Below are positions 1 to 56,701 of a DNA stretch of 64,000 nt, piece by piece. The notes below the pieces were generated by a model. The model ran no database searches and was not told the origin of the DNA. It saw only the letters and a program-made list of their open reading frames with translations. The translations under genes were made by a program, and so were the position numbers. Source of the stretch: Candidatus Altimarinota bacterium (lineage in GTDB: Bacteria; Patescibacteriota; Gracilibacteria; UM-FILTER-43-11); NCBI GenBank assembly GCA_028281045.1, contig JANQKP010000003.1, forward strand, positions 62,001 to 126,000, written 5' to 3'. Position 1 is the stretch's first letter. The number at the start of each line of letters is the position of its first letter.

Positions 1-309
1 AACCATATCTTTAGCTTCTTTAAGCCCAAGACCAGTTACTTCACGAACAACTTTAATTACAGCGATCTTTTGAGATCCACCTTCTTTAAGTTCAACGTTG
101 AACTCAGATTTTTCTTCTCCACCAGCGTCACCTCCACCTGCGGCAGGAGCAGCACCAGCAACCGCTACAGGAGCAGCAGCAGAAACTCCGAATTCTTCTT
201 CCATAGCTTTCACAAGGTCAGCTAGTTCAAGAACTGAAAGTTTTTTAACGCTATCAAGAATAGCTTGTGCGTCTTTAGATAGTTTAATATCAGCTTTTTC
301 GTCAGACAT
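1..309 (-). CDS. rplL: 50S ribosomal protein L7/L12 (partial, cut by window edge)
   Basis: First 103 codons of L7/L12, the acidic stalk protein that recruits GTPase factors to the ribosome. The translation starts [19 protein letters not shown] and shows the N-terminal dimerisation helices, an Ala/Gly-rich hinge at about residues 45-65, and the start of the C-terminal domain ([20 protein letters not shown], then [10 protein letters not shown]). The ATG at 309 lies 51 bases after rplJ, the usual rplJ-rplL order. The rest of the gene lies left of the window. Regulation is probably shared with rplJ through the L10 leader. Confidence 0.95.
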
Positions 310-53731: not shown

Positions 53732-54370
53732 ATGCAGTTTAAATTTAAAGTTTTCATCGCCTTAGGCATATTACTTGTACTAGTTATTAACATGCCTATA
53801 ATCGCTACCGCGGTTATTCAGGGCCAAGCTAAATCTCGTATTCACGAGACCGTGAATGATGTCAGTGTTTCTGAAGCCGCCCTTGTTCTTGGGGCTGCAG
53901 CCTATAGCCCTACAAATCTTTCGGATATTTTAAGAGATCGGGTGGACACTGGCATTGAACTTTACCGTGCTGGAAAAGTTAAAAGCCTTATTATGTCTGG
54001 AGCCAGCAATGAAGTAGTGGCTATGGCCAACTACGCTTTAAACAAAGGGGTCCCTCAAGGACGTATTTATGGGGACCAAAATGGATACAATACTTTTGCT
54101 AGCATCGCCAACGTGGCTGGAGATTATGAAACGCTTGTGATTGTCACCCAAGAGTATCATCTACCACGGGCTATTTTCTATGCCCGCAACTTCGGCATTG
54201 AAGCCACAGGGCTCAAGGCCGACAAAAGAGCTTATCAAAAGATAAAAGAGTTCAAAAAGAGGGAGCTTATTGCCCAGGCTAAAGCTTTTGTAGATGTTTA
54301 TCTTTTCTCTTGGCTACTGCCTTATGAAAAGACCATGGAGCTGAATAAAAAACTCGGTGAACTAGGTTAG
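53732..54370 (+). CDS. SanA/YdcF-like DUF218 protein
   Basis: 212 residues. N-terminal membrane anchor (FIALGILLVLVINMPIIATA), then a DUF218 domain outside the membrane: ALVLGAAAYSPTNLSDILRD, GKVKSLIMSGASNEVVAMAN, NGYNTFASIANVAG and VTQEYHLPRAIFYARNFGIE, the last being the SanA signature. SanA affects the envelope barrier and vancomycin exclusion in E. coli, possibly through envelope carbohydrate metabolism. Its last nine bases overlap the convergent end of thrS. Confidence 0.85.
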   Translation: MQFKFKVFIALGILLVLVINMPIIATAVIQGQAKSRIHETVNDVSVSEAALVLGAAAYSPTNLSDILRDRVDTGIELYRAGKVKSLIMSGASNEVVAMANYALNKGVPQGRIYGDQNGYNTFASIANVAGDYETLVIVTQEYHLPRAIFYARNFGIEATGLKADKRAYQKIKEFKKRELIAQAKAFVDVYLFSWLLPYEKTMELNKKLGELG

Positions 54371-56131
54371 TTCACGGGTTTTTATTTCTTTCAGAAGATC
54401 TTCAATGAACTTCGCTTCTTTCTTAGTGCTCTGATCTTTAGATCTGTAGTGGCGCACCGAAAGTTCTTTGCTTTCCACTTCTTTATCCCCTAGTACAATC
54501 ATGTACGGGATTTTACGAAGCTCTGCAGAACGAATACGTTTTCCAAGACTATCTGTTGGTTCTGCGATCTCTACGCGTACAAATTCGTTTCTCAGTTTTT
54601 CTGAAAGCTCTTTGGCATACTCCACATGTGGTTCTGCCACAGGAATAAGCTGCACTTGTACCGGTGCTAGCCAGGTTGGGAATGCTCCTGCAAAGTGCTC
54701 AATAAGGAATCCAATAAAACGCTCATGGGTTCCAAGTGGAGCCCTGTGAATACATAGTGGAGTTTTTTCTTCTCCATCTTCAGCGGTGTAGGTCAGATCA
54801 AATTTTCCAGGAACTGAGAAGTCTACTTGGTTTGTTGCCAGGGTAAATTCACGTCCAATGGCTGAGAATACCTCAATATCAATCTTAGGTCCGTAGAACG
54901 CGGCTTCATCTTCTACTTCGATGAAGTTCACCTTCGCTTTTTTCATAGCGTTACGTACCATTTCTTCGGTTTTCTTCCAAAGCTCTGGCTCGTTCACGTA
55001 TTTTTTACCTAGTTTCTTAGGATCATGAAGCGAAAGACGCATCACGTATTTTTCAATATTGAAGAGTTTGAAATATTCTAGGTACATTTCAGTCACCGCC
55101 ATGAATTCAGATTCGAATTGCTCCTCGGTACAGTATAGATGCGCATCGTTCATTTGAAGTGAACGTACGCGCATAAGTCCAAAGAGGGCCCCACTATCTT
55201 CAAAGCGGTAACAAGTTCCGTATTCCGCGTAACGTTGTGGTAAATCTCTGTAAGATTTTTTAGTCGCGGCATAAATCAGATGGTGATGCGGACAGTTCAT
55301 TGGTTTTACGTAGTACTCCTCATTATCTACTGGCATTGGTGGGTACATAGAATCTGCATAGTATGGCAGATGCCCAGAGGTTTCATACAGTCTTCCTTTG
55401 GCTAGATGCGGAGATCTAACGCGATCGTATCCGTATCTAAACTCAGCTTCTTTCGCGAGTTTTTCTAGCTCTTCCACAAGCACCGCTCCTTTAGGGAGCC
55501 ATAGTGGAAGACCAGGTCCAACCAGTTCGTGGAAATCGAAAAGCTCAAGCGCTTGTCCGATTTTTCTATGATCTCTTTTTTCCTGCTCTTTTCTAAGCGC
55601 TAGGTATTCGTTCAGCTCTTTTTTATCTCCAAAAGCCAGTCCATAAACACGCTGAAGCATAGGGCGAGATTCATCTCCACGCCAATAAGCACCGGCAATA
55701 CGGTCTAGCTTAAATGTACGCGGATCGATTTGCTTGGTATTGGCAATATGCCCCCCACGACAAAGGTCTTTAAAAGGACCATTGGTCGTGAAACCAACCT
55801 CTTTTTCTCCAGCTTCTTTAAGGTCTGCCGCCAGTTCAATTTTATAAGGCTGATCTAGCTTTTTATAATGCTCGATGGCCTCATCTACAGGCACCATTTC
55901 ACTGGTGAATTCTTGTGCCTCTGCGATGATTTTCTTCATTTTCTCCTCTAGAATCGGAAGATCTTCTGGGATTAGAGTACGAGGAAGATCTAAGTCATAG
56001 TAAAAACCGTTGTCGATCGCAGGACCAATAGCGATTTTTGCATCTGGGAACATATCAAGCGCGGCTTGCGCGAAGATATGAGCCAGACTATGTCTTTTTT
56101 CTTCTAAGGTAGGTTTCTTATCTTTAGCCAT
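54362..56131 (-). CDS. thrS: Threonyl-tRNA synthetase lacking the TGS domain
   Basis: 589 residues; charges tRNA-Thr. The N-terminus starts at the editing domain (KRHSLAHIFAQAALDMFPDA, with HxxxH, and later the Cys of DLCRGGHI), so the roughly 60-residue TGS domain of most bacterial ThrRS is absent. Catalytic core: class II motif 1 region, motif 2 RYAEYGTCYRFEDSGALFGL, zinc ligands including MNCPHHHLIY, and motif 3 near GTHERFIGFLIE. Anticodon-binding domain: VQLIPVAEPHVEYAKELSEK. Controlled by the upstream T-box leader. No alternative start upstream would restore TGS, because the leader has stop codons. Confidence 0.95.
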   Translation of the reverse strand: MAKDKKPTLEEKRHSLAHIFAQAALDMFPDAKIAIGPAIDNGFYYDLDLPRTLIPEDLPILEEKMKKIIAEAQEFTSEMVPVDEAIEHYKKLDQPYKIELAADLKEAGEKEVGFTTNGPFKDLCRGGHIANTKQIDPRTFKLDRIAGAYWRGDESRPMLQRVYGLAFGDKKELNEYLALRKEQEKRDHRKIGQALELFDFHELVGPGLPLWLPKGAVLVEELEKLAKEAEFRYGYDRVRSPHLAKGRLYETSGHLPYYADSMYPPMPVDNEEYYVKPMNCPHHHLIYAATKKSYRDLPQRYAEYGTCYRFEDSGALFGLMRVRSLQMNDAHLYCTEEQFESEFMAVTEMYLEYFKLFNIEKYVMRLSLHDPKKLGKKYVNEPELWKKTEEMVRNAMKKAKVNFIEVEDEAAFYGPKIDIEVFSAIGREFTLATNQVDFSVPGKFDLTYTAEDGEEKTPLCIHRAPLGTHERFIGFLIEHFAGAFPTWLAPVQVQLIPVAEPHVEYAKELSEKLRNEFVRVEIAEPTDSLGKRIRSAELRKIPYMIVLGDKEVESKELSVRHYRSKDQSTKKEAKFIEDLLKEIKTRELT

Positions 56132-56362
56132 GAAAGTAAATTATAATTTTGAATTTAAAAATAACCGATAGAATCATCTATCGGGGACCCTAGTGGGCGG
56201 TTCCACCCCGTTTACCTCAGGTGAGGTCACTCGTTTATGGTGTCGAAAGCTCCTTGAGGTGGTACTTTTAAGGCCATGGCGCAGATGACTTTCAGTCTAG
56301 GGTCACCTTTCCCTTTCCGCTTGGGTCCTTAAAGCATATCCTTTGGGATTCATGCTTTCTTC
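56132..56362 (-). ncRNA. T-box riboswitch leader of thrS
   Basis: The minus strand holds the T-box core GGGGTGGAACCGCCC (56195-56209). Its UGGA bulge would pair with the 3' end of an uncharged tRNA with discriminator U. A perfect terminator hairpin follows: CCGATAGA-TGAT-TCTATCGG (56165-56184) then TTATTTTT. Upstream, stem I can be drawn from CTCGAAGAAAGC with GGAGCTTTCGA, with GGTGACC in the distal loop region and GTACCACC on the 3' side, where ACC would be a threonine specifier. The downstream gene is thrS, consistent with the specifier. This leader accounts for nearly all of the 312-base gap. Confidence 0.88.
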
Positions 56363-56368
56363 GAGGTA

Positions 56369-56397
56369 ATCATACTAGAATCTCTATTTTAAGTCCA
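56369..56397 (-). promoter_or_regulatory. thrS T-box promoter
   Basis: TGGACT (56392-56397), 17-base spacer, TATGAT (56369-56374), placing the RNA start just before stem I of the T-box. Confidence 0.6.
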
Positions 56398-56443: not shown

Positions 56444-56701
56444 ATGCTTCTTCTTGTACTCCTCTACATCGTCCTACTGGTTATCTTCTTCGCCATCTCT
56501 GCGATCATTATTAATCATTCTCGTAGACTCGGAAAACTGGTACCGCATTACAGAGCGGTTATGGGGTTCTTTGGGCTAATTTCAATTATCATCATCGCAA
56601 TTTCTCTATATTTCCTTCTGCAAGTTGGAGATGATTCTCCAAAGCCAGCAAATCCAATTACAGCGCCTGCTAGCTCTGGGTCATCTGATCTGCAGTTTTA
56701 G
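56444..56701 (+). CDS. Small two-helix membrane protein
   Basis: 85 residues, not recognised. Two membrane helices (LLLVLLYIVLLVIFFAISAI and VMGFFGLISIIIIAISLYFL) with a basic loop between (NHSRRLGKLVPHYR), then a Pro/Ser/Ala-rich tail. The positive-inside rule places the loop in the cytoplasm and both ends outside. Divergent from thrS and followed by pdxS with its own promoter. Confidence 0.55.
   Translation: MLLLVLLYIVLLVIFFAISAIIINHSRRLGKLVPHYRAVMGFFGLISIIIIAISLYFLLQVGDDSPKPANPITAPASSGSSDLQF

Follow-up and report, generated by a model that had tools for sequence, protein, structure and literature searches.

A transcriptional T-box without Stem II upstream of thrS in a Patescibacteria bacterium, and its relatives in the phylum

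The T-box is a textbook switch of Gram-positive bacteria, and its apparent presence upstream of a threonyl-tRNA synthetase gene (thrS) in the DNA analysed here (a stretch of 64 kb, hereafter the window) raises two questions: whether the element really is a T-box, and whether it points to wider ancestry or to transfer of the regulated gene. An earlier note, made from the letters of the window, had proposed a T-box controlling thrS in a lineage resembling Patescibacteria. The host is a tiny uncultured Patescibacteria bacterium; this assignment is based on the nearest named ThrS matches, which are Patescibacteria records, and on the fact that some genomes of the same class read glyS only with UGA as a glycine codon. 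In a survey of 2008, more than 95% of T-boxes lay in Firmicutes, and origin there versus loss elsewhere was left undecided (PMC2494555). No report of T-boxes in Patescibacteria/CPR was found in the literature searched, and automatic Rfam or TBDB entries may exist. The gene and the parts of its leader are as follows:

54362-56131, minus strand: thrS, threonine--tRNA ligase, 589 aa (TIGR00418, 641 bits with a cut-off of 384; Pfam PF07973, PF00587 and PF03129)
56369-56397, minus strand: sigma-70-type promoter, TGGACT-17-TATGAT (a TTGAC(T/C)-16..18-TANANT pair in 12 of 12 same-family leaders, TGGACT in the window)
56245-56359, minus strand: Stem I, with base helix GAAAGC/GCUUUC, K-turn-like GA/GA and specifier internal loop (match of model R1, see below, and alignment)
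56261-56263, minus strand: specifier ACC for Thr, with A56260 next to it on the 3' side (19 of 19 thrS leaders have ACC or synonymous ACU here)
56228-56244, minus strand: single-stranded linker replacing Stem II, its 3' end being the purine motif GAGUG (RRRxG; motif as in PMC7583486)
56214-56227, minus strand: Stem III (ACCUCA/UGAGGU), followed by AAA (5 of 6 pairs vary on both sides, 91.7% of cells paired)
56182-56210, minus strand: antiterminator, with helix A1 CGGGG/CCCCG, 7-nt bulge UGGAACC (56205-56199) and helix A2 GCCC/GGGU (minimum free energy (MFE) fold of the domain)
56157-56184, minus strand: intrinsic terminator CCGAUAGA-UGAU-UCUAUCGG plus U run, 8 pairs (4 of 8 pairs vary on both sides, 91.7% paired)

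On the minus strand, a leader of 229 nt and the promoter-like pair precede thrS, and Stem I begins 7-13 nt after the promoter end in 12 of 12 family leaders. The gene upstream of the leader is divergent; a terminator on the minus strand, located between this promoter and thrS, can therefore act for thrS alone. The T-box core, the eight-pair terminator with its T run, the upstream promoter and the ACC specifier that had been read from the letters were all located, the core GGGGTGGAACCGCCC at 56209-56195 (minus strand) and the others at the places listed above. Stem I carries an AG-bulge-like AAAGGGAAAGG at 56316-56306 and a distal loop GACUGAAAG at 56297-56289; the AGGGA bulge and the GACUGAAAG loop are conserved and occupy the places expected of the IDTM, with which T-boxes of Classes I and II bind the tRNA elbow, the K-turn and the distal (IDTM-like, double T-loop) motifs being recognised by eye only. 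Stem II is absent, a feature that the earlier note had overlooked; in each of the 19 thrS leaders its place is taken by an unfolded linker of 13-16 nt. The motif RRRxG-Stem III-AA, which belongs to the definition of the T-box (PMC7583486), is present as GAGUG-Stem III-AAA. The unconstrained MFE structure of 56232-56180 (-19.8 kcal/mol) is exactly Stem III plus an antiterminator with the UGGAACC bulge, so the proposed UGGA-bulge antiterminator folds without being imposed. The terminator hairpin occupies 56184-56165 and the U run extends as far as 56157; helix A1 and the terminator have 56184-56182 in common, so that antiterminator and terminator are mutually exclusive.

RF00230 was the sole Rfam family matching the leader, with a weak match over the full model length (1-219; 27.8 bits, E = 3.4e-4). 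The gathering score of this family is 93 bits, and the leader is missing from the list of matches above it, which means that automatic annotation overlooks the element; this cut-off is strict, being exceeded in just 2 of 14 control genomes with the same tool. The Rfam alignment placed the 5' end of Stem I at 56478, which is too far upstream and within the divergent neighbour, and this position was rejected in favour of 56360 from the family model. For this covariance model, R1, three thrS leaders of the family that RF00230 had found (L005, L009 and L011) were used and the window was excluded; it matched 56360-56157 of the window with 115.2 bits (E = 6.7e-33) and gave no second match in the 64 kb up to an E value of 1. 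The leader fold lies 3.5 sd below shuffles, and the antiterminator pattern, which was derived from the site itself, occurs once in the 64 kb and in none of 100 dinucleotide shuffles. Other weak RF00230 matches (L002, L003, L014, L015, L018 and L019) were discarded, as their E values are 0.01 or higher and most are located in coding sequence or are not followed by an amino-acid gene. One convincing T-box was found in the genome.

Covariation was assessed in a MAFFT alignment of 12 same-family leaders (alignment A2). In the discriminator domain (Stem III plus antiterminator), 10 of 17 pairs vary on both sides with 95.5% of cells paired, and the covariation score is 0.543 versus 0.194 for shuffled and at most 0.148 for slid alignments. 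Helices A1 and A2 are paired in 100% and 95.7% of cells, with compensatory changes, and the paired share of the terminator falls to at most 45.9% when its positions are slid. Helix A1 and the terminator also covary jointly, since A1 reads CAGGG/CCCUG in two genomes (G011 and G004) and the terminator partner is altered likewise. The Stem I helices show both-sided variation with pairing maintained, in counts taken from an alignment (A3) that was fitted to R1 and is biased to its structure, and they weigh less than those for Stem III, antiterminator and terminator.

The genome encodes tRNA-Thr(GGU) and tRNA-Thr(UGU), both with 3' UCCA (ARAGORN, all genome stretches), so that the specifier ACC can pair with the anticodon GGU and the bulge UGGA with UCCA; the discriminator of tRNA-Thr(GGU) is indeed the U that a threonine T-box with this bulge was expected to meet. 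An apparent absence of tRNA-Thr(GGU), suggested by a pattern search and by the 30 Rfam tRNA loci, was overturned by ARAGORN: the gene had been missed because its anticodon loop is CATGGTA rather than TTGGTA and because it lies outside those 30 loci. The variable base of the bulge tracks the amino acid among other T-boxes of the class: threonine and glycine go with UGGA, ileS (L007, L180) with UGGU, and trpS (L008) and aspS (L012) with UGGC; the tRNA 3' ends of the window genome are UCCA (Thr, Gly), ACCA (Ile) and GCCA (Trp, Asp), the agreement holding by class and not within one genome, as these loci come from other genomes. A possible T-box before the threonine synthase gene thrC (L016) is an exception, its bulge UGGU being mismatched to the discriminator U of tRNA-Thr. 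By eye, the specifiers of L007 (AUC), L012 (GAC) and L008 (UGG) may sit in a short apical loop.

The thrS leader at 56360-56157 (minus strand) is thus confirmed as a transcriptional T-box, and the sequence evidence makes it very probable that it terminates transcription in response to the charging of tRNA-Thr(GGU) and so controls thrS, as the earlier note had interpreted it. Given the observed parts, covariation, conserved position and cognate tRNA with matching discriminator, binding of the tRNA, sensing of its charging and antitermination are expected from the known T-box family, in which uncharged tRNA joins specifier and bulge and holds the antiterminator, and charged tRNA leads to the terminator (PMC7583486, PMC7778990). 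Transcription would start at about 56361, upon which Stem I would fold, its specifier ACC would bind the anticodon GGU and its distal loops would grip the tRNA elbow. With uncharged tRNA-Thr, the 3' UCCA would pair with the bulge UGGA, stabilising A1 and A2, blocking the terminator and allowing thrS to be transcribed. With charged tRNA-Thr, the 3' end would be shut out of the pocket, CCGAUAGA and UCUAUCGG would pair, and transcription would end before thrS. Most likely, the T-box would let thrS be transcribed only when uncharged tRNA-Thr builds up.

Other kinds of control could be envisaged for such a leader. A leader-peptide attenuator, in which ribosomes stalling on a short ORF rich in threonine codons link translation to termination, would also place an intrinsic terminator ahead of an amino-acid gene, and the leader does contain short ORFs; however, each of these holds 1-2 threonine codons with no threonine run, and conservation falls on the T-box elements rather than on an ORF, which makes an attenuator highly improbable. 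Autogenous control, i.e., binding of the ThrS protein to an operator mimicking tRNA-Thr, has its precedent in E. coli, where ThrS autoregulates. The E. coli system works at translation, whereas here promoter, antiterminator and terminator are conserved, and autogenous control would give the UGGA bulge and the specifier no role; we consider it just as improbable as an attenuator. It is also very unlikely that the leader is a decayed T-box, with an inherited structure but without switching (for instance, a constitutive leader). The low RF00230 score and the single convincing T-box of the genome would agree with decay, but pairs, bulge, specifier and promoter have been retained in 12 diverged family members, and the antiterminator and terminator pairs are intact in the window itself. 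Mis-binning was rejected as an explanation for the T-box, as the same leader lies upstream of thrS in 12 genomes.

A functional T-box being the preferred reading, its relation to the four published T-box classes can be considered (PMC10482949). Class I combines a long Stem I with Stem II (with S-turn). In the glycine-specific Class II, Stem I is also long, but a single-stranded linker takes the place of Stem II. Class III, whose specifier lies in the apical loop of a short Stem I, requires Stem II, and Class IV resembles Class III with a Stem I of intermediate size. Like Class II (B. subtilis glyQS type), the thrS leader is transcriptional and has a long Stem I, which bears the specifier in an internal loop and a putative distal motif, as well as a single-stranded linker for Stem II, Stem III and an antiterminator/terminator; unlike Class II, which is described for glycine only, it carries the specifier ACC and targets thrS. 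With Class I (B. subtilis tyrS type) it shares the long Stem I, the UGGN bulge, the antiterminator/terminator and an aminoacyl-tRNA synthetase target, but it has neither Stem II nor IIA/B, only the unpaired linker of 13-16 nt. Its specifier loop matches the Bacillus consensus inexactly. Because its build is that of Class II but reads threonine, and the Stem II of Class I is missing, we filed it as a T-box without class assignment.

Relatives of the element were searched for in other genomes. Among 288 genomes of the class, R1 matched 34, and 12 of these are among the 18 sampled from the window's family, both numbers being lower bounds owing to strict filters. All the family matches are directly upstream of thrS, and so are those in families f2, f11, f23 and f27. 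R1 also gave weak matches immediately before thrS in further Patescibacteria (L031, L032 and L034), a Parcubacteria record among them. In 127 of 380 Patescibacteria genomes sampled evenly across the phylum, RF00230 found matches at E <= 1e-3, and in 13 of the 127 the gathering score was exceeded. Ten of these matches were checked for the genes downstream, which are proS (twice), argS, tyrS, ileS, hisS and argG, and genes for a trpE-type anthranilate synthase, a sulfate adenylyltransferase and an amino-acid dehydrogenase. Judged by these matches, Patescibacteria carry the T-box as a regular feature and not as a local oddity. Its occurrence in a third of the sampled genomes has a direct bearing on the question of an origin in Firmicutes versus loss elsewhere, and suggests that these gene-poor cells gauge their amino-acid supply via tRNA charging.

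For the origin of the T-box, the earlier note had offered either wider ancestry or the transfer of a synthetase gene with its regulation; the wide occurrence in the phylum agrees with the former, and the ThrS protein gives no support to the gene having moved as a unit. Over residues 1-195, the window ThrS shares 63-67% identity with every family member. Over residues 195-480, its identity is 74-80% to one set but 44-46% to another (L158, L164, L165 and L166), whose leader type is that of the window despite the differing catalytic cores. In quick trees with SH-aLRT support only and without Bacillota sequences, the N-terminal part unites the whole family (97), and the core splits the two sets, with that of the window grouping with Peribacteria, Verrucomicrobia and Elusimicrobia records (99). 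By identity pattern and trees, the window ThrS is a mosaic, whose N-terminus was passed on with the leader while its catalytic core was replaced. Inheritance of the leader within the family is supported, and joint transfer of leader and synthetase gene is not; as the trees contain no Bacillota, an old transfer of the T-box into the phylum is possible. The T-box-controlled ThrS of two other loci (L160 and L174) has an N-terminally added aminoacyl-tRNA editing domain (PF04073), which the window ThrS lacks.

Smaller T-boxes precede glyS in genomes of the same class, outside the window (L010, L013, L017, L176, L179, L181-L187 and L225-L246). Directly after the promoter, these leaders form a 4-9-pair hairpin whose apical loop of 7-10 nt contains GGN. 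On its 3' side come a linker, in most cases Stem III, and then a T-box antiterminator that overlaps a terminator, with no Stem II; Stem III is not visible by eye in several of them (L236, L237, L239, L241, L243 and L246). Because the models that found the 27 glyS leaders score the antiterminator, its presence does not count as independent evidence; the hairpin search is more independent, although nine of the leaders had been used to train R2. The GGN hairpin was found in 22 of the 27, versus a mean of 2.9 and a maximum of 8 in 200 mononucleotide shuffles. The glyS model R2 holds 9 base pairs from RNAalifold and acts chiefly as a sequence profile. Among the 16 dinucleotides, GG ranks top in the hairpin loops, the runner-up TG (15) overlapping the same UGG motif, and the hairpin stems diverge in sequence with pairing kept. 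RF00230, applied to 10 glyS leaders, matched 2 at E <= 1 and none above the cut-off; as it missed 8 of 10 even at this threshold, current annotation undercounts small T-boxes.

These leaders resemble Class III (Actinobacteria ileS) in the short Stem I and apical-loop specifier, and differ from it in the intrinsic terminator, in glycine specificity and in the absence of Stem II, which Class III requires. Transcriptional T-boxes are generally held to need a long Stem I (PMC7583486). We consider it probable from sequence comparison that the class uses T-boxes outside the four published classes, namely a threonyl type with long Stem I but no Stem II, and a glycyl, transcriptional short-hairpin type with apical GGN and no Stem II, in some cases without Stem III, that would still switch an intrinsic terminator, also in genomes with UGA as glycine. 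The loss of Stem II and the far smaller glyS versions raise the question of what a T-box minimally requires, and these reduced architectures, together with the apparently undescribed spread in Patescibacteria, give the element a wider interest. Some of the glyS leaders belong to genomes in which glyS opens only if UGA encodes glycine; in these apparent UGA=Gly genomes (L177/L234, L179, L185, L187, L226, L229, L235 and L237), the apical loops carry GGA rather than UGA as the specifier.
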